Part shown: positions 911-64,000 of the stretch, piece by piece
How positions within the stretch are numbered: the first letter of the stretch is position 1
How the letters are laid out: each line of letters starts with the position of its first letter
Source of the DNA: Loxodes magnus
Taxonomy: Eukaryota > Ciliophora > Karyorelictea > Loxodida > Loxodidae
Length of the DNA: 64,000 nucleotides
Reading direction: 5' to 3'
Assembly: GCA_946699065.1 (NCBI GenBank)
Contig: CAMPDV010000004.1
Span: 1,116,001 to 1,180,000, forward strand
Notes under the pieces: generated by a model
Seen by the model: only the letters and a program-made list of their open reading frames with translations
Told to the model about the DNA's origin: nothing
Databases searched by the model: none
Made by a program: the position numbers and the translations under genes

Positions 911-1714
911 ATGGAAATTAAGAAATTTGGAAATTGTTATTTTATATACTGTACAAAATTTTCCTTAAATCCTATTTTTTCAATAGGACCTGATTGATAG
1001 AGTTGTTGTGGTTTAATTTTAGCAATAAGTGGATTTGATGGTATTATAATTTATATGACAGATGGGATTTCTTAGCTTCTATTTATAATTTTTTTAATTT
1101 TATTCCTTTTATCCTTACTTTCAACTGCTCTTATAAATCCTTCCTATTAAATAAACCACTTTGAAGAAGAAAATCGTCCTTTACTTTATGGCAATGAGAA
1201 TAATTTGGATAATACAGTTAGTGAATTAAAGCCTTAGTAAGAAAGAATTAATGAGTCCTAAAATGTTTAAACTTGATGCTCGCGTTGTTAACTAAAAGTA
1301 AAAAACCTCGATCATCATTGCCTTTGATCTTCAAAATGCATAGGAAAATAAAATTTATGGTGTTTCTACATATTTATAGCAGTTTTGTTCAATAACTTAG
1401 TCTTTATTATGATAATGTTATTAAATTTCCTCATGATCTAAGCTCCCTTTGCATATGATTTAGTAAGAGATTCTGGTGATCCACTTTAAATATAACTATT
1501 TAACTATGCTTGGTTAATAATCTTAAACTTATTATAATTTAAGCTTTAATTTAAAAGTAGGGCTTTATCAAACTTATGGACAACCTTCAATACATTTTAT
1601 TGGTCATTAATAAAAAGCTTGAGTATACTTAATTAATAGAAAGTACCTTAAAATTTCTCTATATTCAAAGTTTCTCTTTAATAAATTATTAAATCATTAG
1701 GTAAAGTAAAATGA
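911..1714 (+). CDS. DHHC-type palmitoyltransferase, tandem copy 1
   Basis: Predicted S-acyltransferase (zDHHC family) that transfers palmitate to cytosolic Cys residues from a membrane. Read with TAA/TAG=Gln and TGA=Trp it gives 267 residues. Two N-terminal membrane segments lie at about 30-80, a CxxC pair (CSRC) near 118, and the catalytic DHHC at about 134-137 followed by Leu-Trp, where the Trp is a TGA codon. A CIGK segment and two more membrane segments follow, then LWTT, resembling the TTxE motif. The start is chosen because copies 2 and 3 begin with matching sequence. The TGA at 1712 is taken as stop: from about 1326 onward no other in-frame TGA occurs and Trp is written TGG. First of three tandem paralogues on this strand; the frame stays open into copy 2 if that TGA is read as Trp. 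Confidence 0.8.
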
Positions 1715-1969
1715 TCAAATACTAGCAAACCTCTATAATAGTTTTAGTTATACTCATTAAAGTATTCATATCCAGTAGATCTTTTATTAGATTAGACAAT
1801 GTGGTCTGATATGAACTATTCCTTAAATTAATATCTGACTTTAGCAATGCTAAGAAAATAATTGCTCATCTAATATTCTAGAATGCTACTCTTGCTAGTG
1901 ATACTACATATTCATCTGATAGCTAATTATAAGTGCTTTATTACTTCTAAATTGCTTTAAATTAAAAAA

Positions 1970-2572
1970 ATGAAATTTTAGAAGATTGGTAGTGTTTATT
2001 TCCTGCTGAGAGAAGATTAAAATAAAAAGCCAATTTTAAGTATCGGACCTAGCTGACATTATGCAGTAATTTTGCTATCCATTATCCTCTACTTAAATAT
2101 ATCAATAGTCAATAATGTTAACTTTGGGCTATGGAAGATTCTCACAATTATTACTACTATTTTTTTGTCCTTAACTTTAATATCAACAGCTTTGCTAAAT
2201 CCTCAGTACATAATTAGCTAAAATTATAACATAGACGAAGTTGAAGAAGGTGGATCAACTTAAATAGCAGATGAAATTTCAGTAATTTCAAAAACTAAAG
2301 ATGAAAAAGCTGAGCTCTTGCTAAAAAAGCAAAAAAAGAAAATTTAGCTTTTTCTATGTGATGAGTGCAAAATATAAGTTTTAAACTGAGATCATCACTG
2401 TATTTGAGTAGGGAAATGCATAGGAAAGGGAAATTTGATAAGTTTTAAGATGTTTGTATATAGTTTACAAGTGGATTTGGTATTAATACTGATAGGTTAT
2501 ATGATGATAATTTATTAGACTTCTTCTTGACTTTAAATTAATTTAAAATTATTATATTTTATCTTAAAATGA
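1970..2572 (+). CDS. DHHC-type palmitoyltransferase, tandem copy 2, short C-terminus
   Basis: Paralogue of the neighbours: M-K-F-Q-K-I-G start, SIGPSW at the first membrane segment (Trp is TGA), a second membrane segment ending in TALLNPQY, a Lys-rich loop, CDEC, then DHHC at about 141-144 followed by Ile-Trp (TGA) and GKCIGKGN. One hydrophobic segment follows and the frame reaches TGA at 2570-2572, giving 200 residues. This copy lacks the fourth membrane segment and the TTxE-like region seen in copies 1 and 3, so it looks C-terminally truncated, or it ends through an exon I did not find. Another in-frame TGA at 2528 could be Trp or an even earlier stop. The last TGA overlaps the ATG of copy 3 (ATGA at 2569-2572), an unusually tight join for a nuclear gene. 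Confidence 0.65.
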
Positions 2573-3539
2573 AATTTACTAAGTTTGGAAATGTCTATTT
2601 CTTTCTAAGTGAAAAAACTCTTTAACCCATAATGAGTATTGGACCCCATTGATATTTCACATTAGGACTATTTTTTGTTATTGTCGTTTTTAATGGAATA
2701 TTTGTTTTTTAGATTCAAAGTTCTGATTATTATATTTATGGGTTAGTGTTGACTTTCTTATTAGTTATATCCTAATTGACGACAAGTTTATCTAATACTC
2801 AATATATAATATAAAGTGGCGAATCTGATTACTTAGAGTTGAATGGTGGCCCTCTTATAAATAATGAAAACTAGTCTCATAATTTCTAGCCTGAATACTA
2901 GAGAGAAAGCTAAATTAGATAACAATCTTAAATGAATAGTAATGACTACCATTAATAATAGAAGATTGATGAATAGTCTATCTAATAATTCTAAAAAAGG
3001 AAATTGGAAAAAGTAATAGAAACTACTTAATACAATCCTAGCAATCAATATTAGAATGATCAAAATATAGATATACATGAAACGAATTTGGAGTAGGGAA
3101 ATTATTAGGGAGAAAGAATAATTTTTTGTAAACATTGTGATTTATATGTAAGAGAATTAGATCATCATTGTCCTTGAATAGGAAAATGCATCAGCAAAAA
3201 TAATATAATTTATTTCTATGTATTTCTCACTCTTTTAGCTATAGATTTTTACTTTATGATGATAGTATTTATGATGCAAGGTTCCAAAGCTAACTAAAGT
3301 TGAGAAGAGTCAATTTGAAGAAACTTATTTTATAATTTCTATTTGGATTTAATTGAAGTAAGTACTTTTATAAGCTGGTTAAGATAATAAATCTTTATTT
3401 GTTTAAATTGTAAGTTTATATTAATATCATGCTTTTACTATAGCTAGCAGATAACATCTCTTTCTAAATTTATACAACTATTCAAAATAGCAATATTATC
3501 ATCCATATCTTTAGTTATTTCAATCAAAGTATATTATGA
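2569..3539 (+). CDS. DHHC-type palmitoyltransferase, tandem copy 3
   Basis: Third zDHHC paralogue, 317 residues over two exons (2569-3357 and 3375-3539). The inferred 17-nt intron GTAAGTACTTTTATAAG restores a C-terminal membrane segment followed by an IYTTIQN motif (TTxE-like), as in copy 1. Order: M-K-F-T-K-F-G start, SIGPHW (Trp=TGA), two membrane segments, a Gln/Asn-rich linker of about 110 residues (many TAA/TAG) absent from the other copies, CKHC, then DHHC at 198-201 followed by Pro-Trp (Trp=TGA at 3175-3177) and GKCISKNN. The DHHCPW hexapeptide is the clearest proof in this window that TGA is read as Trp. Without the intron the frame ends at TGA 3712-3714 instead, without the TT motif. 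Confidence 0.78.
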
Positions 3540-4825
3540 AAGTAGACTTAGACTCTAAATAGCACTAATAATCTTAAGATTTTTGTATTTGTTATTAGAG
3601 TTAATTTTGCATTTGATGATATAATATTGCATTATTTAATAAGTAAGCATCTCTCTCATATTACTAATTTAATACTTTTATAAGTAATGCAGTTAAATAA
3701 TAATTAAGTATTGACATAAGATGATTTATGGAGTCTACTATCCTTTTTAACTTTTTTATTTAATTTATGCAGGCTTAATTAAATTTAATCACTATAGAGC
3801 AATTTTTATTCTTAAATTTTAAATTAAAATAATCTTATTAATGTTAGTTAAAGTATTGTTTAAATAATAATTCCAAGATCTTTTAAGAGGAAGCAGAACT
3901 AAATTATTAGATATAAAATATTAATTTTTTCAAATAGGCAAAGGAATATATAAGCGATATTTAAATCACTAAAAATCTTAAATTTTATATATTTTTGATA
4001 TTAATTTATTAATCAAAAATAAGTTCTTTGCAAACCTTGAAGATATTAGATTTAGTTACAGCTTTATAAATAAAATGTTACCAAAAGTTGTTTTTATAGT
4101 TATAGATATTGCTATTATTTCAATTTTGCTAGTTATCAAGATATAGGATATCATAAATGTTGGCTTTAGTATAATCTAGAACATTAAATTTGATCTTTGT
4201 TAGTAGGGTTTAGATATTTCCAAGAGCTAATAAATTATATTATCTAAAGTAATTTAAAATAAATATTTATCTTACGAAGGATATTATAACAGGAACTCTT
4301 TCTTTTATGTTCCATGTATTATCAAGAATCTTAGATTTAACTTGATTAAATTACTTTTTAATTAACGATACTTTTAGAAAAAAATTAAATGCTCTTTCCT
4401 TAAATTTTAAATTAGACTTAAATTAAGAAACTTAAAGTCTAAAAGTATGAAGCAGACAGTAACATTAAAAGAATTGATTAGTTACAGCATTTTTTATAGC
4501 TAGGGGATTATAAATAGATAAATAAAGAAACTAAGCATTAATAAAATAGCCTTAAAAATAATCTTAGTTAACATTTCTCGTTATTCAAGTTAAAATTTAT
4601 ATTTAGAAACAGTAAAGCATATCTCTACTAATCCATATATACAAGTAAAAAAATTAACTTTCAATTTATACTTTGTAATCAATAAATTTAAATCCTTTAA
4701 TTAGAACTTGAAGCATTACTTAAATAAGATAATTAGATATTTGCATAATTACTAAATTATTTTTAAAGTAGCTAAATAAGAAAATATATAGGGGATTGAA
4801 TTAATAATATTGACAAATTTTTTAT
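3540..4825. other. Spacer between convergent genes
   Basis: No recognisable gene. One plus-strand frame lacks TGA from 3715 to 4833, but it contains no Trp codon in about 370 codons and no family motif, so I treat its openness as a consequence of TAA/TAG being sense codons in AT-rich DNA. Confidence 0.4.
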
Positions 4826-8847: not shown

Positions 8848-9168
8848 ATGTCTAAGCCTAGAAAAGCTCCAAAGCGTGCCAAATAACTAACAAAGGGACA
8901 TCAAAGAACTAAATTAGACAAATATGAAAAACCTTCTTGGAAGAAAGGAAAGATCACCAAAAGGATGGAGAGGTGCAGATAGGTTGTCAGAGAAGTCTGC
9001 GGATTTGCACCTTATGAGAAGAAAATGTTAGACTTTTTAAGATCTGGTGGAGCTGCAGAAGCTAAAAAGGCATTGAAATTAGCTAAAAGAAGATTAGGAA
9101 CTCACAGAAGAGGAATGTTGAAACGTTCTTACTTAGAAGAAATAGTTTAGAAAGAGAGATCAAAGTGA
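8848..9168 (+). CDS. RPL36: 60S ribosomal protein eL36
   Basis: Structural protein of the large cytosolic ribosomal subunit. The single-exon frame gives 106 residues, the usual eL36 length. The diagnostic block CGFAPYEKKMLDFLRSG is followed by KKALKLAKRRLGTHRRG and a short charged C-terminal helix ending ...VQKERSK. Three Gln are written TAA or TAG, and the only Trp (PSWKKG) is TGG. The ORF ends at TGA where the family normally ends, which is good evidence that TGA is the working stop. The N-terminus is Lys/Arg-rich, as expected for an rRNA-binding protein. Confidence 0.95.
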
Positions 9169-10021: not shown

Positions 10022-11591
10022 ATGTAAATATTAAGGTCTAATTTTAAATAGCTGCTTCCTAAAGTTTATTAATCAATAGAAAAAAGCGCTTTTATTGGTA
10101 TAGACTTAGAGTTCACAGGTTTGGTATCTCATCCTGATTTGAGTAACTCTAATTTAGATAGTATATAAACAAGATACTGGAAGGAAAAACAGAATGTTCA
10201 GAATTTTATTCCATTATAAGTAGGATTATGCTGCTTCGAATTTAAAGATAACTAAATATACGCAGAGCCATACACTTTTCATCTTTATCCTACAGTGCTT
10301 GAACCTTAAGTGGATCTAGTTTTTACTGTCCAAGCTTCTAGTCTTTTGTTCTTAAGTTAATACGCTTTCGATTTTAATAAGAATTTATATGATGGTGTCA
10401 GTTGGCTAAATCCCCATGAATTAGAAAAGATAAAATAAAACAAGTAGTTAGATAGTTTAAAGGCTAAGTACTTACAAACTCTAAGGGATTAATTGACTCC
10501 TGATGGATACGCTCTTTATAAGCAGATAAGAGATTAGGCTTATTAAAAAATAGAAGTAGAAAAGTGAGAAAACTTGAAATGGGACATCAAATTTACTAAA
10601 AGAAGCGCAATTAGATACATAATAAAAAACCTTTAAGATTAGAACTATGACTGCAGAATCGATAATGATGAACTAGTTGTATTTAAAAAGGAAGGCAACT
10701 AAGTTATCTCTCCTATAGAAATAGAAGAAAAAGTGGAAGTCACCGATGATGATTTGTTGGGATTTTCTAAAATAATATAAAGCATAAGTAGCTTAAAGAA
10801 ACCTATAGTCCTACATAATTCGCGTTTGGATATTTTCTACTTATAAGATAAGTTCTTATAACCGCTACCTGCTACTTTGACACAATTTCAACATTCTTTT
10901 AATGAGTTTTTTCCAACTCTATATGATACAAGATATATTCTTTAAACGAGTAACGTACTAAAGAAAATGATAACAGATAAGAATAAGCTTAGCGATATTT
11001 TCCAATAAGTACAGAACTAAGTAACCATTTAGGTTGATAATAAATCACTAAAAGAAGCAGAACATGAAGCAGGATATGACGCTTATATGACTGGAGTTAT
11101 ATTTTTGTGGACACTTAAATATCTGGGAATTTCTCTTCCAGAAATGATAAATTCAAGCAACTTAAAATTAAATTATTTCAAGAACAAAGTTCCATTAAGT
11201 GGAGGTAGATTTCCAATGGCTTTAGGAAAGGATTTATAAATTGACGATTCAGCTGATAAGTAGAAGTGAGTATTTGTTTTGTCTAAATATAAAGGATAAG
11301 TAATTGAGTTATAAGAGCAACTATAAAAGATATTTGGTGATGATATACTAATATCAACGCTTTATTGGTCTAATGAAATGTTTTATTTAATACCTGGATC
11401 ACTATAAACGGTAATATTTTTTACATTAGCTAGAAAAAATAAAGAAGGTGATGGAAGACAAAGCGATATATGAGTTATAACTTAAAAATAATGCAATAAT
11501 AATTCATACTTTCGAAGGATATAGTGATAGGATAAAAAACAAACTTAGCAAAAAGAATAAAATGCCAGAAATATTGGAGTTGCTTAACTGA
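10022..11591 (+). CDS. PARN: Poly(A)-specific ribonuclease PARN (CAF1-type DEDD deadenylase)
   Basis: 3'-exonuclease that shortens poly(A) tails; 516 residues. The N-terminus MQILRSNFKQLLPKVYQSIE matches PARN closely and places the metal-binding acids at D28 and E30 (GIDLEFTGL). The third acid is in LHNSRLDIFYL and the last motif is HEAGYDAYMTG. A C-terminal RRM-like region follows (ISTLYWSNEMFYLIPGS). An inferred 19-nt intron at 11411-11429 (GTAATATTTTTTACATTAG) is needed to join this to the final exon, which reads LEKIKKVMEDKAIYELQLKN and continues to TGA at 11589. Trp appears both as TGG and TGA (for example VEKWENL, KQKWVF). All four DEDD positions are present, so it should be active. Confidence 0.93.
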
Positions 11592-12020
11592 TAATATAAT
11601 TTTTCCAACTTTTAAATTATTTAATAAGCTTAATTGTACAAAAGCTATCTGGCTAATTATATCTTCCAGCCTTTTATTATTAATTAAATCCTTATCTTTT
11701 AGTTTCATCTACAAATTGTATTTGCAAAACTTGTAATAAAATAGGATTTAAAATTTTGTTTAGTAATAAATTAGTCATCAATGATTGTATTATATAGGCA
11801 GATTAATATCTTTTGAATATAATAGATATCTATAAATCATATTTATATCTTAATAGCTTACTTAAAATATAGATACTTTATTCTATTTAGTTTCCTCTAT
11901 ATCTAGCAGTATTATCTATTAGATTATTAATAACTATTTTAAGCTCGTTAAGATATATTAAAACATTAATAAAGGTATAAGTTATTTTAGAAGGCTAAGT
12001 AAATTTTACAAATTAGTTTA
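11592..12020. other. Spacer downstream of PARN
   Basis: AT-rich DNA, no feature recognised. Probably carries the PARN 3' end and the promoter of the next small gene. Confidence 0.4.
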
Positions 12021-12618: not shown

Positions 12619-13275
12619 TTAACAGCATGAGTTTGTATGTAAGCAACTTTCTCTAAATGACTATTTTAAATATCTTACTTTAGTATTACCTTTATTATTG
12701 CTCTTTAAGGTTAGATTTTGAAGTGATATATTTGAACTCTACGGTATTTTAGAGGCAAGATATTCAAATATCTATGTTACATTTATGTTTTCCTTTGCTG
12801 AAGCTTCGAAAAAAGTTAAGTCATTATTTTGAGAATAGACTTTACATTCTGATAAATTCACTTGAAATTGATCTGAGGATTTTTCTTAGTTCTTAATAAG
12901 ATCTATTTTATTAGCTACAAGAACTATTATCATATGCTAGCCAAGTTTCTCTTTTAACTCATTAACTCATCTTTATGCACCTTTATAACTTTCATATGAA
13001 CCCATATCAAAAACTACTACAGCGCCTACTGCATTTTTATAATAAATAGGAGCCAAAGCATGAAATCTTTCCTAGCCTGCTGTATCCCATAATTCCAATT
13101 CAACAATCTATTATTATTCAGGAATTTAAACCTTTTTGGCATAATAACATGCACCTATAGTAGATTCGCTAATGGTTTAGAATTATTAGAAAATAAAGCG
13201 AGATACAATTGATGATTTACCAACTCCAGAATCTCCAAGCATTACGATTTTGTTGTTATCCTTAGGAAAACTCAT
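12619..13275 (-). CDS. Rab5-like small GTPase
   Basis: Small GTPase of the Rab family, most like Rab5/22, which act in early endosome trafficking. P-loop GDSGVGKSS (about 14-22), switch I STIGACYY, WDTAGQERFHALAPIYYK, NKIDL and EASAKENINV are all intact. 'TAGQERF' fixes TAG as Gln. A TGA codes Trp in GAQRWVNEL. The protein ends ...SCLHTNSCC, a double-Cys geranylgeranylation motif at residue 218, the expected Rab length, but the next codon is TAA. The frame then continues to TGA at 12409-12411, which would add 70 unlikely residues after the prenylation site. I place the end at the TAA and flag it as possible TAA termination. An in-frame 18-nt GT-AG stretch near the 3' end may be an intron. Confidence 0.88.
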
Positions 13276-19447: not shown

Positions 19448-21394
19448 ATGGAAACAGTTTTAGAAGAATAGATGAAGCAAATAGATGAGGTTATTTTTCT
19501 TAACTTTTAAAAAGAATCTTCATATAGAATGCTATATTTAGATGGTATGGCTAATAAACTACGTCTGGAAGCTCTTATGGCTGTTGAAGCAGCTGGATCT
19601 GGACATGCTACTACTGCAAGTTCTATCTGTGAAATTCTTTCAGTATTATTTTTTGATCCTTTTGTTGGTATTAAAACTTCATTAAAAGATCCAAGAAATG
19701 TTGCATGTGATAAAGTTATCTTATCTAAAGGACATGCAGCTCCTGCCTACTATGCTGCTTGGGCTAATTTAGGTCTTTTTCCTTTAGAAGAATTGAAGCA
19801 CTTACGAGAATTTGGCAATGATTTGGAAGGTCATCCTACTCCAAGATTAAACTTCGTTGATGTAGCTACAGGATCACTTGGATAAGGATTAGGAGCAGCG
19901 TGTGGAATGGCATACAGTAACAAACTAAATAAAATAGGAAGTAAAGTTTACTGCATCTGTGGAGATGGCGAAATAGCTGAAGGCAGTATATGGGAAGCTT
20001 TAGCATTTGCAAGCAAATATAATTTAAGCAATTTGATGCTTTTTGTAGATGTAAACAAAATGGGATAGTCAGTAGTTACTCTACATGGTCATGATTTAAA
20101 TACTTTGAAAGCTAAATTTACAGCTTTTGGATGGACAACATTTTGCATAGATGGTCATGATGTATCAAAAATTATTGAATGCTTAGAAGAATAGAAAAAA
20201 GAATAAATTCAAACACCAATTTGTGTGTTGGCTAAAACAATTAAAGGAAAAGGGTTTGGCTAAAACGTTGAAGATAAGATGGGATTCCATGGAAGATTAA
20301 TTGGCAGAGAAAATGTACAATTTGCAATCGCAAATTTGAACAATAAAAACATCAAACAACTTCCTCCACCCAGGACGTTACCAGAACTTGAATTAATCCC
20401 AAAATAAGTAGATATAATTTATACTTTGGGAGCTTCACCTTTCAGAATTGATTAAATTTCGTCGGGACGTGATGGATATGGTTAAGGCTTAGTTGCATTA
20501 GGAAAATAAGATCAAGATCATACCTAAATAATAGTACTTGATGCAGATATGAAAAATAGTACATTCTCTTAAGAATTTGAAAAGGCTTTTCCGTAGTATT
20601 ACCTTGAGTGCTACATATGTGAATAGAATATGATTAGTGCTGCTTTAGGATTGTGTTGCTAAGGTAAAATTCCGTTTATTTCTACTTTCTCTTCATTTTT
20701 ATCTAGAGCCTTCGATTAACTTAGAATGGCAGCTATTTCAATGGGAAATATTAAAATTTATGGTTCTCATGGAGGATGTTCAATTGGTCCTGATGGTCCA
20801 AGCAATATGGGTTTAGAAGATATTGCAATGTTTACTTCGATTCCTAATTTTGTAGTATTATATCCATCTGATGCCTATTCAACCTTTAAATGTGTTGAAC
20901 TTGCAGTAAATTGGAAAGGAAATGTTTATATTAGAGGAACTAAAGCAGAAACTAAAGTAATTTATTCAAATGAAACCTAATTTGAAATAGGAAAAGCTTA
21001 AGTGTTAAGAGAATCACCTTAAGATGTTATAGCAATAATAACTTGTGGAGTTACTTTGCAGGAGTCTTTAGATGCAGCTGATATCTTATAAGAAAAGTAC
21101 AGTATTAAAGTATAAGTCATTGATCTATTTTCAGTAAAGCCTATTGATGTTAATGTCTTAAGAAAAGCTGCTGATGTAGGTAATATTCTTGTAATTGAGG
21201 ATCACTATGCATAGGGAGGAATTTATTCAGCAGTAATTTCTGCTTTAGGAGGAAAAGTTATATAAACTTAATAATTGGCGGTCACTTCAATTCCAAGATC
21301 AGGAAATCCTAAAGATTTGATGAGCTTTTATGGTTTTACATCAGATAAAATAGTTATGAAAGTTCTGGAAATGTTGGAAGCCAAAAAAGAATGA
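19448..21394 (+). CDS. TKT: Transketolase
   Basis: Thiamine-diphosphate enzyme of the pentose phosphate pathway that moves two-carbon ketol units between sugar phosphates. Single exon, 648 residues. Seen in order: [20 protein letters not shown] (substrate/ThDP His), [14 protein letters not shown], the ThDP motif [13 protein letters not shown] near 173, DVNKMGQS (Gln=TAG), KGKGFG, then in the pyrimidine domain the catalytic Glu in [14 protein letters not shown], and [20 protein letters not shown] (animal-type His-Gly region). The C-terminal domain has [11 protein letters not shown] and a final helix ending ...LEAKKE before TGA. The spacing and motifs fit the animal/protist TKT type. All four Trp I located are TGG; no in-frame TGA before the stop. 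Confidence 0.96.
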
Positions 21395-29486: not shown

Positions 29487-32336
29487 TCATCTAAAAGCTG
29501 CTTTCTACATTTCATCATCATAAATAAATTCTGGAGGACACTTCAAATCTTCGTCTTCTGTCTTTGCCAAATTAAAGTCAGTTTGCCAATCGACCATAAA
29601 AGATTGATATTATTCTCCTTGATTAGAATCGTTTAATAAAATTATTCCAGCTTTTCGATCGGATTCAAATGGAGTAAACCTTTACTCTAAATTGTACTGA
29701 ATGAATTGCTCTTATCTTGGTAAGACTTTGGAGGCATTTTCTTAGATGCAATGATTCTGTACTTCCTCTTTTTGATTTTGTTACTGTTCTGGTTTTTCTG
29801 GCTCTTATTTCTATTCTTCAGGCTTCTCAGGCTATTCTATTTCCATTTCGTCTCCCGTTTCCTTCTTTTTAGCAGCTGCTCTTACTTATGCCTTTTTGGT
29901 TGTAGATAAAACAGCAGTTTATATCTTTTTTTGCTTTGCATTTTCTGGTGGAACCATTTTTGGTGGATAAGCAAACAGAGCTGGCTTGGCATTGCTGATA
30001 AAGGTAAATTCTTTTGGTATAGATAAATCGGAAGTGAGTCCAATTAACGCTGTGGGCTTAATAACCATTGATACAAAGTTAAGTAAAGGATACCAATACC
30101 AGAATTGTAAAAACATGGTAATCCCTACAACTCCACAACTTCTAAGGGTATTCTATCTTGATATTATGTTTAAAGTTGAGTTTCCACCTGCTATATCAAT
30201 AATTCCTGAAGCTAAAATCGCACCAAATTTAGTCATGTCTTCTCCTCTTTTTTCTCCTGCTGTTTTTCTACATTATTCTCTAAATTTATTAGCTTGATCG
30301 CTATTATTTTACACCATAACTAATGAATTAGCTATGTAAGCTGCTTGACGTACGAAGTTTGACTAATCATTAAGCATTGGCTATAAAATTTTAATAGCTT
30401 AATGACAGTTTGGCATTCCCATACATGCTACTCCAATAGCCATTGCTGCGCCACATCTAGCAAATGGATTATAACTTTTAGCTAGTAATTGAACTAGATC
30501 GGGAACTCTTAATGGGTCTCTAATTAACAAAAAGCCAATACCAGTTACGGCAGCTCTTCTTACATCATAATCAGTATCATTGCAAGCATGATGTAACAAT
30601 CGCTGAATAGTAGGTTTATGGCCTGATCCAACGTATGCTAAAGCCATTGCATACATTCCTCCATATCTGAGTAAAGCATCTTTCTCATTAATTAGCTAAG
30701 TAATTAGTGCCTCTGCTTAGTTTCCTTTGTTATAAACTATTAGCGCAAGGCCAATAGAAAGAGCTCTTATTATTTTTTCATGTCTTGTTTCATGAGCATA
30801 AGTAATCATATCCTAGATTGAACGTTCATCATTACTACCTAGCATAATAAGACCCATTGCATAACCTGCAGCTTCTCCAGCAACCGCACTATCTGCAAAT
30901 AGAATATTTTTTAGTTCATCAAAAAGCTAAGGATTTCCTGAACCCATAGCAACTAATCCAAGTCCTAGAGCACTTCCATGCTAAATAATGTCAGCTTGCT
31001 GAGGATTTTATGTTCGTAAATGGTCAAGTAAAAATTAGACTATTTCTTGCTTTCCTGAATTAGCAAAGATTAAACCAAGGGCAAAGAGACTTCCTGACTC
31101 TTAATATGGATTATGATTTTATCCACCTACCTAAAAATATGGCTGAAGAATATCCATAGCCTATTTGTGGTTTCCTTTATGAATTACTCCTAATGAAGCA
31201 GTAGCACTAAACCTTGCCCAGTTTGTAGCTTTGGCAACCCAGTCTAAATTATTATGCAAAAATTAATCATTAGAAGTAGCACAATTATGGAAGCCATTGG
31301 AAATAATAGTTGATGAATGGGTAATTGAATTCTTTATGTCAATACTTTACTTAATAGTATCTATCACTAATTAATCTGCTTGTGATCTTTACTTCCAAAA
31401 ATGCAAATAAAGCTATGATGGGGTCTCTCCACTCAAGATGGTTTTTATTTTATTGATCATGATATCATTCTGAGGAAGTTTTTCGATTACTTAAATGAGG
31501 AAAAATTAATCTTCAGTCTCATATAAGTCAAAGCTTACTTGCAACGCATTCATTAACTGATTTTCTTAAACCATGTTTTAAAGCATTTCTGCAACAGTAT
31601 TAGAGTTTTTCAAATAGAAATGCATTTTACAGATATCAGTGAGGTTTAATGACTTTTTTATGTCTTATTATGTAACTAATTCTTAAACTACTTATCTACG
31701 GAACTCTAAATCCTCCACCTTGTCAAGTGTTAGTTATTATGTATACAAAATTAGTTCCCTTGGACTTCCTGCTTGAGTAATGCATAAAGTAATCATATCT
31801 AATCTTCTGGATTCTAAGGCTACTCCTATTGCTTACTTAAACTTTTTTTCTTCAAAGCAATGTCTGAACATTTTTTCTATTAGCTTTTCTAATTTAGGGT
31901 TTATTTAAACATTCTCTAATTCCATTGCTTCTTCTTCAGGTTTCTGTTCTTTCTCTTGGAATTTTTATTATTATTTTCTTTATGCAATGTACTAATCAAT
32001 TGACTTAGCTACGATTGTATCAACATATAATTCACGTTTTGTTACATCGAACCATTATTCAGCCTCAAGTGCCAATCTCAATGCTTCAGTATATTCTTCA
32101 AGATGATAGTACACCTTTGAAGCTATAAAAGCAGCTAAAGTTCTTTCTTAGAATTCCTAGTTTTCAAATAAAGCCTCTATTTCTTCCAAGTGATTTGCAA
32201 CTTCAGGCCAAAATGTGTCAACAATAGGCAGGAGACTATGAAGAGCGAATGCTTTTATCTAAAGTTCTGGTTCTTTGAAGAGAGATATTACTGAACTTGC
32301 TGATGTGATTTAGGGAGCAACTAATGCTTGAGCCAT
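29487..32336 (-). CDS. RPN2: 26S proteasome regulatory subunit RPN2/PSMD1
   Basis: Largest base scaffold of the 19S proteasome particle, binding the ubiquitin receptor Rpn13 and Rpn1/ATPases. Uninterrupted 949 residues, close to human PSMD1 (953). N-terminal helices [20 protein letters not shown], then the toroid of PC repeats ([76 protein letters not shown]), then [20 protein letters not shown], a Lys/Glu-rich insert, and a C-terminus with [11 protein letters not shown], matching the Rpn13-binding PPEPFxYxDD tail. A TAG follows DDEM and five more residues precede TGA. All Trp I checked are TGG; no TGA is used as Trp in this long gene. Confidence 0.96.
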
Positions 32337-57681: not shown

Positions 57682-60469
<2,788 letters not shown>

Positions 60470-60549: not shown

Positions 60550-62650
60550 TCATCTCCTCTGGTATGGCTCCTTCTTTCTGGCTTTGTATTTGCCTACTTT
60601 CTTTCTCTCAACCACTCTCGGATCTGTTCTATTTAAATTATCTATATATCATCAAATTACTTTCAGTGAACATCTGTTTTACTTCTGGATGTAACCCTTA
60701 AACTGCTCTTGCGATTGCTAGTCTACAGGCTGAACTTTATGAACTTAATCCACTACCTCTCACTATACATTTAATATCGTAATCAGCGTAAACTGCAGCA
60801 GCTCTCAAAGGCTGCAAAAGTTGATCTCTATGTCAGAATTTATAAAAGTAAACATTGATTGGCAGACCATTTACTGTGATTTTTCCGCAGCCTTTCGTAA
60901 GCCAGGCTTAGCATTTAGCAGATTTTCTCCATCCTCTTCCATATCCTGGATCATTAAGATTCTCTTTATATCCAAGATCTACTTTAAAATCTTCTATATT
61001 ATCTTTTTCCAGAAACTCTATTTCGCTTTCTGGATATACGTACTACCCTTCTTAAAGATGCTTCTTTTCAGCCCAGATTCTAAAATGGTTTTGAAGATGA
61101 TGCTGATAATAAGGATCATCTCTTAAGGAATGCAGAACTTGAATTTCGAAAACTTCATTTTTCTTAAGTTCTTTTTCCTTCTTTCAGATTTTTACTTTAA
61201 TGTCCTTCAAAACTTTGTAATGCTCCGGTTTCCTTCTAGGATCTATTTCTGTTAAAAACTCAGGCACCAAAGTTTCTCTGAGTCCATCCATATTGTAAAC
61301 AAAATCTGAAGGCAAATCTTCAGTTTTTACGTTTAAATATCTTGGAGTGAAATAGTCAGAAATGAGAGCCCCTGATATTTCTAATTTTTAGAGTACTTAT
61401 TGAGGTAAGGTCACTAAAATTTCCTCAGCCTATTTTTCAAGCTAATCTTAGTTAAGTATCTTTGTCCCAAACTTGCTTCCAATTTCATTAAGTTCAGCTA
61501 ACTAAGCGCTTATCTATTTAGTTTCATTTGTAAAATTCTTATCGTAATAGCTGATTTTATACTAGCTAGTATCTACAACTTAGCCTTTTTGCTTCTCTTT
61601 CAGTTTCTTTTACCACTAAGAATACTTTCTTAGAATTTCTCTATCTCTTTGAATTTTAATCTTCAGTGCATATTACTTTAAGCTTTCAGGGTCCATTAGC
61701 TAAAAAATATGTTAATGGAAAGCTACTTTTATAGTTTTATCAACTCTATGTACCCATTTCATTTTTTCCCAAGTGCTTGTGATGGCGTAAGGAATTTTAG
61801 AATCAATACTATATTTAATTATTCTAACGGCCTTTTAAGGATCCTCAGTTTGCTCCAATTTTTTTTCAAGAGCTTAATCAAAGTTTTCATCCTATTGTAG
61901 GTTCTTTTAGAAAACGGATCTATCTTTAATATCATACTTTTTCATAACTTCGTCAATTTATGTCTGGCTTTAGTTTTGTATTTCTAAATCTCTTTAAGTT
62001 TTTATGATTTTGTCGAAACCCAGTCCATAAGGCATTTTAGTGATTTAATCTATATCTATACGTTCAGTCATTATATTATCAGGAGGAAGTAATTCTTCTT
62101 CTTGATAATATGAAGCTGGCTTTAATTTCTTTGGGTCTACTCTTTCGTTCATTTTCAATCGCATGTCCAAAGTATCTTCTGCCTGCATTTTTTTAAAAGT
62201 ATCAGGGATATATTTTCTAGCCTTAGCCTATTTTATAAGTCTAAGCTGCTATTTTATTTTTTACTGCTTTTCTTTTTCTATCTATTCTTCTTTCAAAATT
62301 ATATCTAAGAACGAGAATGGCTTCTAGCTCAGCTCGGGATAAATAGAAGTTGTTCTGAAGAGCTGGTGGATGCTTTTATCAGAAGGTTCTTCCTCAGGTT
62401 TCAAGTTGAGATTGAGGTTAATATTTCAATAGCTATTAGTAGCGAATTGGAGTTTCCTTAGCTTCCTTAAAAGCATGGAATTATAATGATAATAAAGATG
62501 TTAATTATTTAATCCCTTATATATAAGACGCTTATCTTCATACCTTACTAAACTCCTATTCATTATAAAATCATCTTGCAGATACAAATCTACTATCTCA
62601 ATACCTTAAGTTTCAATATAATCTTTTCTGAGATGAAGCATGATATTCAT
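60550..62650 (-). CDS. Mitochondrial ribosomal protein uS9m with long N-terminal extension
   Basis: 693 residues, exons 62650-60661 and 60641-60550. The 19-nt intron GTAATTTGATGATATATAG restores the canonical S9 end TDPRVVERKKVGKYKARKKE-PYQRR before TGA. The last about 140 residues form the uS9 domain (GWRKSAKCQAWLTKGCGKIT, VNGLPINVYF, QPLRAAAVYADYDIKCIVRG, GLSSQSSACRLAIARAVQGL). uS9 lies in the small-subunit head with its basic tail near P-site tRNA. About 550 extra residues, helical and Lys/Glu/Gln-rich, precede it. Large mitochondrion-specific extensions are known in ciliate mitoribosomes, so this is probably the mitochondrial version; no clear presequence is visible. Met-Asn-Ile-Met at the start gives two possible ATGs (62650, 62641). 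Confidence 0.88.
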
Positions 62651-62946
62651 GATGATTTAATAAGTTGTTAAGCAGTGAATTGTATCCAATTTACAATTTA
62701 TTTATCTAAAGACTTAATCAATTTAGTTTATCCTATAAAATACTCTAGTAAGGAATCAAATTAGTTTCTTAGTTAAAAGATATTGTCAAAAGGTTAAATT
62801 TTACTAAGTAGATATCTAATTATGCTTAAAGATGCAATTTGTTAATTATAGCTAATTAATTTCATTTAACAAATATCTATTCTTTGATTCCTGCAGAAGA
62901 AGCATAGACATTTATTTAATATAGTAGGAGTATTAATTAAAATAGC

Positions 62947-63120
62947 ATGAACAAGGAGTAAAATAGTTAGAATAATAGAATGTAATAAGATTGAAATGAA
63001 GAGTTTAAATGATTATAATAGATTTAAAATGAGGATATAATAGATAGTGTTATTATCTTAGAAAGGCTTTTAAGCGAAATTAATAGCTTTAGTAATATAT
63101 CAATATAGTCCAAATCATGA
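62947..63120 (+). CDS. Possible 57-residue protein
   Basis: ATG 62947 to TGA 63118-63120. MNKEQNSQNNRMQQDWNEEF continues KWLQQIQNEDIIDSVIILER and LLSEINSFSNISIQSKS; both Trp are TGA. The amphipathic acidic C-terminal helix and the charge pattern look protein-like. The frame is open further upstream without an ATG, so this may be the last exon of something longer. It overlaps the astacin gene end by six bases (palindrome TCATGA). Family unknown. Confidence 0.35.
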
Positions 63121-64000
63121 TAGAATTTCTATGCATTCTGGACACGATGGCCCGCTGTCTGGTCCACAATATCCATTGTGACTAACTTCTGCTACTCCGA
63201 AATACTTTCCGCAATATATCATTCCAGATCATCCTTATCATTTACCCAGTTTCTTTATTAATTCAGTCTTCGGAGTTTATAAAACTCTACAGGATGTACA
63301 GTTTGCTCATATATTTGGACCACAAAATCCATTAGTTAAATCCATAAAAGGTTAGTTATGATTTTTCATTACTTTGCGGCCACAGTAAAAAAGTCCACTT
63401 TTACCTATTATAGGATTGTAAGAAGGAGTTCTTACAGGATTAAATACAATATTGATCCCTATTTTATCAAGTTAGCTTAATTGTATTGGATATTAATTAT
63501 TTTGCTTTAGTTTTCAAACTGAATTATTATTCCTTTTCATATCTTAATTTTCTGGATAAAGCATAATGCTAAAAGGATCAAATCGTGTTAAATCAACACC
63601 TTCCTTTTCAATATCATATTACTCGTCTGCTTATTTTTTAACTTTAACATACTTGCCTCTATCATGTCTCTATTATTCATGCTAAAAGCCTAAAGTATGC
63701 ATTATTTCATGGATTTACGTTCCTTCTTTATTAGGCCATTTATTGTTAAAAAAAATTGTTGCCCCTTCTTCATCAAAGATAGTTCCAACAGCATAAGCTT
63801 CAATTTCTTCAGATACTTCTTTTTTAATTTCTATACTTCATTTTTAGTTTTTAGGTCTCTATCCATTTTAAATTTTTCATTTTATACCAGGAACAACTTC
63901 AGGAAATACTTTCGTGATTGCTTTATTTATACTCTTCTTTCATAGCTTGTTTAAGCCTTTATTAACGTATACTTATATTTCTTGCTATTATTGCCTAAGT
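63115..64000 (-). CDS. Astacin-type metalloprotease (M12A), 5' end beyond window
   Basis: Secreted-type zinc endopeptidase; the visible 294 codons include the C-terminus. Zinc motif HEIMHTLGFQHEQQRHDRG (HExxHxxGFxHExxRxD) and the Met-turn FDPFSIMLYP (family SxMHY, with the zinc-ligand Tyr) are intact. Two Cys-rich repeats follow the protease domain: YCGRKV...GFCGPN...CTSC and YCGKYF...GYCGPDSGPSCPEC; similar CGP..C..C modules occur in secreted ciliate proteins as far as I recall. Trp is TGA in NSVWKLK, PNIWANC and KWQGWSG. Ends CIEILS then TGA; 15 nt later a second in-frame TGA. N-terminal signal/propeptide lies outside the window. Confidence 0.85.

Follow-up and report, generated by a model that had tools for sequence, protein, structure and literature searches.

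UGA as tryptophan, stop and probable selenocysteine codon in the karyorelict ciliate Loxodes magnus

The 64,000-nucleotide stretch of Loxodes magnus DNA analysed here (contig CAMPDV010000004.1, positions 1,116,001 to 1,180,000 of the forward strand; hereafter the window, with positions counted from its first letter) is almost certainly macronuclear DNA that uses the karyorelict genetic code, table 27. In this reading, the best explanation of the window, UAA and UAG stand for glutamine (Gln), and UGA stands for tryptophan (Trp), stop and very probably selenocysteine (Sec). The code itself is already known and in print for L. magnus. According to the parts of the cited literature that were available, to which all references in this text are limited, table 27 covers Loxodes and Parduczia with UAA/UAG as Gln and UGA as Trp or stop (PMC11441545; Swart et al. 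2016 Cell PMC4967479). The sole stop in Loxodes is UGA, which means Trp at a large distance from the poly(A) tail (Seah et al. 2024 PNAS PMC11441545). The 3′ untranslated regions of L. magnus are short with a median of 41 nucleotides (nt), its introns are tiny with a mode of 17 base pairs (bp), and sense UGA and UAA are depleted ahead of the stop (PMC11441545). A preliminary description of the window had proposed table 27, with all three standard stop codons as sense codons and a double meaning for TGA. This is supported by alignments with masked codons, by motif columns counted across the genome and by those gene ends whose position could be established; the code was already printed for the species, and a third reading of UGA as Sec had not been considered.

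The codons were read blind by masking TGA, TAA and TAG as X and aligning the resulting proteins to solved structures (PDB). For the codon tallies, only the top-scoring alignment of each protein was used. In the window, TGA stood opposite Trp at six of nine aligned sites. Three of these belong to a cGMP-dependent protein kinase (PKG; minus strand, 57682..60388 from query start to stop, with Pfam support), in which all three TGA codons at 59909-59911, 58823-58825 and 58181-58183 faced Trp of 9p74, which we take to be a Plasmodium PKG. The last one lies in ADI-TGA-SLG and is the codon that had been read as Trp in ADIW-SLG.

The other three sites come from positions 911-3539, which hold three tandem DHHC-domain copies when translated with table 27. 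All three lie on the plus strand. Copies 1 (911..1438, scanned as 911-1999; Pfam DHHC, E 1.2e-9) and 2 (1970..2566; E 1.1e-13) comprise the core only. Copy 3 (2569..4020; E 3.1e-15) is the most complete and covers positions 13-128 of the 133 of the family model. The codon in the place of Trp in DHHC-x-W is TGA in each copy, at 1325-1327, 2405-2407 and 3175-3177, respectively, and it faced Trp of ZDHHC9 in all three masked alignments. TGA at this site had been pointed out for copy 3 after DHHCP and for the equivalent site of copies 1 and 2, and both claims hold. DHHCP itself occurs only in copy 3, while DHHCL and DHHCI precede the TGA in copies 1 and 2.

Concerning the genome as a whole (705,730,643 bases in 7,843 contigs, the window being C4:1116001-1180000), the assembly was searched with the Rab/Ras motif pattern RTN-NNN-GAY-ACN-GCN-GGN-NNN-GAR, in which the Trp and Gln codons are left open. 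It gave 118 matches compared to a single one for the reversed pattern. Among the 100 matches listed of these 118, with 96 distinct 24-mers, the Trp site was occupied by TGA (56), TGG (37), TAT (2) and TAC, ACA, TTT, TTA and TGC (1 each), and UGA is commoner than UGG at this site. The Gln site held TAA (59), TAG (21), CAA (13), CAG (4) and ATG (3). A kinase motif served as a side check, as kinases with Phe or Tyr dominate its aromatic site (268 matches, 4 in the control). Among 100 listed of the 268, Phe codons were found 51 times, Tyr codons 24 times, TGA 12 times, TGG 11 times and others twice; TGT and TGC were absent among these 100. On the basis of the motif columns, the assignments of UGA to Trp and of UAA and UAG (UAR) to Gln are secure. 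The preliminary description had made its reading depend on whether genome-wide columns favour Trp and Gln, and they do. Its two TAG examples from the window were also recovered, namely WDTAG-TAG-E at 13072-13074 in a Rab-type GTPase domain (minus strand, 12742..13275; Pfam Ras, E 8.3e-47) and NKMG-TAG-S at 20066-20068 in a transketolase (plus strand, 19448..21394; Pfam, masked alignment to 6rjb).

The masked tallies for TAA, TAG and control codons cover three window proteins, PKG, transketolase and the TAA/TAG-rich 26S proteasome subunit RPN2 (minus strand, 29487..32306; Pfam RPN2_N, E 3.4e-81). TAA was most often found opposite Gln, with 16 of 75 non-gap positions, at a Gln content of 4.3% of the subject residues. 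In the same alignments, the control codons showed a comparable pattern, with 6 of 25 non-gap positions for CAA opposite Gln, 1 of 14 for CAG opposite Gln and 9 of 13 for TGG opposite Trp.

Some window codons speak against these assignments. In the same three proteins, TAG stood opposite Glu at 8 of 26 positions and opposite Gln at only 3 of 26, so that Gln for TAG is taken from the Rab column and not from the window alone. Away from the DHHC-x-W site, none of the three aligned TGA codons of the DHHC copies faced Trp: TGA 1274 in copy 1 was opposite His, and TGA 2387 and 2528 in copy 2 were opposite Phe and Ser, respectively. Copy 2 may end at TGA 2528. The remaining in-frame TGA codons, 995 in copy 1, 2054 in copy 2 and four further ones in copy 3, lie outside the aligned stretch. 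Copies 1 and 2 (911-2566) have kept the core without covering the family length, and copies 2 and 3 are in different frames. Copies 1 and 2 have the appearance of tandem duplicates that are truncated or in decay.

As a terminator, UGA was found at all 13 gene ends that could be placed, which is a small set chosen by alignability; neither UAA nor UAG terminated any of these 13. Four of the ends lie in the window (eL36, transketolase, RPN2 and PKG) and nine elsewhere, in five thioredoxin reductase (TXNRD) genes, two selenophosphate synthetase (SPS2) genes and two reductase genes below the TXNRD cut-off, which we take to be glutathione-reductase-like from their C-termini. Among the matches below this cut-off, ends were sought for C46, C86 and C23, and the end of the C46 gene was looked for and not found. 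The TGA ends that had been described for eL36 (9166-9168), transketolase (21392-21394) and PKG (57682-57684) were confirmed. In eL36 (plus strand, 8848..9168; Pfam L36e, E 1.8e-25), a TAG six codons ahead of the TGA lies inside the domain match (residue 199; match 110-202) and must therefore be read through. RPN2 also has a TAG six codons ahead of its most likely stop (TGA, 29487-29489); as this TAG lies beyond the Pfam match, the end of RPN2 is the least certain of the 13. PKG ends in NWDEDF-TGA, presumably the ending of the PKG family, in a different frame from the kinase domain, and a short intron presumably lies between the two.

In the window, ARAGORN and Rfam at the gathering threshold found no transfer RNA (tRNA) or other RNA family, and the decoding machinery was thus sought genome-wide. 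A tRNA-Gln with the anticodon UUA is multicopy with 372 pattern matches at ≤3 mismatches; all 100 listed were exact and carried UUA, and one gene examined in full forms a cloverleaf. Together with the Rab Gln column, this agrees with table 27. Genes for tRNA-Lys and tRNA-Ala are also multicopy. An Rfam tRNA search scored 63 of 42,786 candidates; 30 loci from it were examined and proved to be tRNA-Lys, some with an adjoining tRNA-Ala.

For tRNA-Trp, the anticodon was CCA in all matches listed, namely 100 of 177 for one pattern and 76 of 76 for a second. No tRNA-Trp(UCA) was among them, even though both patterns permitted UCA. Two types have an anticodon stem of only 4 bp with a broken top pair. 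The first, with A27.C43, forms an array at C67:482321-491201 and accounts for 48 of the 100 listed matches (30 overlapping loci examined); the second, with U27.C43, is present in 72 copies at C148:155454-209570. Repeat units in the tandem arrays are roughly 187 and 241 bp long. A normal 5-bp stem occurs in three copies on C110 (of which one was examined in full and two over 25 bases), and one divergent copy is located on C7736. The 4-bp-stem tRNA-Trp(CCA) has been shown to read UGA in other organisms and its presence in Loxodes is published (PMC13092985, PMC12005148); the available parts of these two papers contain no mention that 4-bp and 5-bp forms coexist in Loxodes.

The release factor eRF1 is encoded by two close paralogues, L048 (C196:19713) and L049 (C196:54613), about 35 kb apart. 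By eye, both carry the same substitutions in the motifs that read the stop codon. L048 was aligned to 4crn_X, which we take to be a yeast eRF1 chain; the human residue numbers used here are likewise assumed. It has Ala at Ser67 of this chain (human Ser70) and at human Glu55, RAQNIKS in place of TASNIKS, where the Gln is itself encoded by a UAR codon, and Phe in place of the Tyr of YxCxxxF. Ala at residue 70 may weaken the recognition of UGA in Loxodes. A further match to the eRF1_1 model, L047, lacks the motif and was set aside; judged by eye, it is presumably a Pelota-type relative.

UGA probably has a third meaning in Loxodes, as judged from its genes. tRNA-Sec(UCA) was found at three loci above the Rfam cut-off. 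The genome contains one match for SepSecS, with UGA at a conserved Trp in the masked alignment, as well as the two SPS2 genes and the five TXNRD genes already mentioned, which lie above their cut-offs (TIGR01438 for TXNRD). An in-frame UGA is present at the Sec site in all five TXNRD and both SPS2 genes. Every TXNRD gene ends in GC-UGA-GG-UGA. In TXNRD L082, two internal UGA codons faced Trp in the masked alignment to 1zdl, presumably a mouse-type TXNRD2, and the penultimate UGA faced a Cys whose position we take to be Sec in the natural enzyme. In L083, the second copy examined in full, the two internal UGA codons occupy the same positions and precede the Sec codon by 407 and 397 codons. In both SPS2 genes, UGA lies in GMKG-UGA-GCKVP, where it was opposite Thr of SPS1 (3fd5) and Cys of a selenophosphate synthetase (5l16) and not opposite Trp. 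In SPS2 L091, this codon is located 335 codons before the stop. The three other Trp codons of this gene are all UGG, though Trp is commonly encoded by UGA elsewhere. To judge from these three codons only, UGA for Trp is perhaps avoided in an mRNA whose selenocysteine insertion sequence (SECIS) would act far upstream.

A hairpin resembling a SECIS (UGA, helix, apical AA, NGA) was detected by a custom scan 35-37 nt past the stop in each of the five TXNRD genes and 24 nt past the stop of SPS2 L091. The letters of the helices differ and the pairing is kept. The six hairpins scored 7.5-8.5, and 0, 0, 2, 2, 5 and 2 of 200 dinucleotide shuffles were as good; as background, 4 of 160 window segments scored ≥7.5. 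L082 and L085 share one hairpin element, so the five TXNRD flanks amount to four independent sequences. A MAFFT alignment of the hairpins was poor and was left unused. The flank of the second SPS2 gene, a partial and unscored sequence, has letters that resemble the hairpin. It is very likely that a single TXNRD gene carries two UGA codons for Trp and a third, for Sec, that precedes the fourth, the stop, by two codons, that the UGA of SPS2 335 codons from the stop encodes Sec, and that all three meanings occur at high frequency. If true, the SECIS must override Trp insertion in SPS2 and termination in TXNRD and still spare the Trp-UGAs of its own messenger RNA (mRNA). In the literature searched, as far as it was available, no statement on selenium or Sec in Loxodes was found, and the Sec reading is accordingly an extension for which the same literature yielded no record in print.

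The competing explanation for these genes is that UGA means only Trp and stop, that the UGA codons at the Sec sites of TXNRD and SPS2 are read as one or the other and that Sec is not made. Two points count against Sec: the Rfam SECIS model had no match in the TXNRD flanks, and the custom scan was devised after the hairpins had been seen. Loxodes nevertheless possesses tRNA-Sec at three loci, a SepSecS gene and two SPS2 genes whose catalytic site carries UGA, and all five TXNRD genes combine GC-UGA-GG-UGA with a SECIS-like hairpin 35-37 nt past the stop. A genome that makes no Sec is thus considered unlikely.

A code of the Condylostoma type (table 28), in which each of the three is a sense codon and may terminate as well, would account for the sense use of UAA, UAG and UGA that Loxodes shares with Condylostoma and for a tRNA-Trp solution of the same type. 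Taken alone, RPN2 could also end at the TAG that precedes its TGA by six codons. Yet the 13 placed ends, a small and hand-picked set with four in the window and nine elsewhere, are all TGA, and the TAG inside the eL36 domain match is read through. With 0 of 13 ends at UAA or UAG, termination at these codons was rejected and table 28 is held to be very unlikely. If UGA were a stop only and the TGA-bearing genes pseudogenes or misassemblies, the apparent truncation of DHHC copies 1 and 2 would be expected. However, TGA occupies the Trp site in 56 of the 100 listed Rab motifs, and SepSecS, with its single genome match, and PKG have TGA exactly at Trp sites. Pseudogenes and assembly errors were rejected on the Rab column and have hardly any probability left. 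Table 27 is supported by internal UGA at Trp sites (Rab column, PKG 3/3, DHHC site 3/3) and by UGA at every placed end, including the less certain one of RPN2.

According to table 27 with Sec added, UAA would be read as Gln by the multicopy suppressor tRNA-Gln(UUA), and UAG is Gln as well. UGA would by default be read as Trp by the 4-bp-stem tRNA-Trp(CCA). As the only terminator found, UGA would act near the 3′ end of the mRNA, where, in the published model, eRF1 aided by the close poly(A) tail beats the tRNA. In an mRNA with a SECIS, UGA would very probably be read as Sec by tRNA-Sec(UCA). If the SECIS acts at the natural position only, the Trp-UGAs elsewhere in that TXNRD mRNA would escape it; such a confinement was reported for mammalian TXNRD1 (PMC3737529).

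Further genes of the window are a PARN/CAF1-type nuclease (plus strand, reading frame as scanned 10118..11884; Pfam CAF1, E 1.1e-61) and an astacin-type peptidase with several in-frame TGA codons (minus strand, 62827-63999; Pfam, E 7.7e-12). A Ribosomal_S9 match (Pfam, E 3.5e-21) is located at 60620-60934 on the minus strand, upstream of PKG and in the same frame. The two would fuse if TGA were read as Trp, and the intervening TGA must thus be a stop, provided that the genes are separate.

Compared to table 27 as published, the basic code of the window is identical. Added here are the counts of the Trp column (TGA 56 and TGG 37 of 100 listed), the coexistence of 4-bp and 5-bp tRNA-Trp, the change at eRF1 residue 70 and the Sec genes. 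For UGA in Condylostoma magnum and Parduczia, the term "codon triality" has been introduced (Swart et al. 2016 PMC4967479, Fig. 6 legend). Loxodes is similar to C. magnum (table 28) in that all three codons are sense, that UGA serves as Trp, stop and Sec, the latter probable in Loxodes, and that the TXNRD Sec codon shortly precedes the SECIS, or the SECIS-like hairpin in Loxodes. It differs in lacking a UAA or UAG stop among the 13 ends. The two SPS2 genes of Loxodes, in which UGA stands at an early Sec site (335 codons ahead of the stop in the gene that was measured), have no counterpart mentioned in the available parts of Swart et al. 2016.

In Blastocrithidia, UAR encodes Glu, UGA encodes Trp and UAA is the stop (mBio 2025 PMC12153298). 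Loxodes shares with it a 4-bp-stem tRNA-Trp(CCA), an eRF1 altered at Ser70, a retained Sec toolkit and UGA as Trp and, probably in Loxodes, Sec. It differs in that UAR encodes Gln, the stop is UGA and not UAA, eRF1 residue 70 is Ala and not Gly as in Blastocrithidia (PMC12153298), and 5-bp tRNA-Trp is present, too. Condylostoma and Blastocrithidia are said to have only the 4-bp form (PMC13092985). Amoebophrya sp. ex Karlodinium veneficum, a dinoflagellate relative with a code described in PMC6394959 and PMC12005148, is similar in several respects: all three codons are sense with UAR mostly as Gln and UGA as Trp, 4-bp and 5-bp tRNA-Trp coexist (one of seven tRNA-Trp(CCA) is 4-bp in Amoebophrya), and tRNA-Sec as well as genes with Sec-UGA are found, the latter probable in Loxodes and reported for a few genes in Amoebophrya. 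In Amoebophrya, both tRNAs and eRF1 are believed to act on each of the three codons. Unlike in Amoebophrya, the 4-bp tRNA-Trp genes are many and the 5-bp genes few in Loxodes.

What is added is a view of Loxodes at the level of the genome, with UGA standing for Trp and stop and probably for Sec. A conserved Trp site has UGA more often than UGG, and Trp-UGA, probable Sec-UGA and stop-UGA occur within one gene, so that a single Loxodes mRNA could serve to test how the choice falls between a near-cognate tRNA, tRNA-Sec and eRF1. The 4-bp and 5-bp tRNA-Trp genes of the same genome offer a natural comparison.

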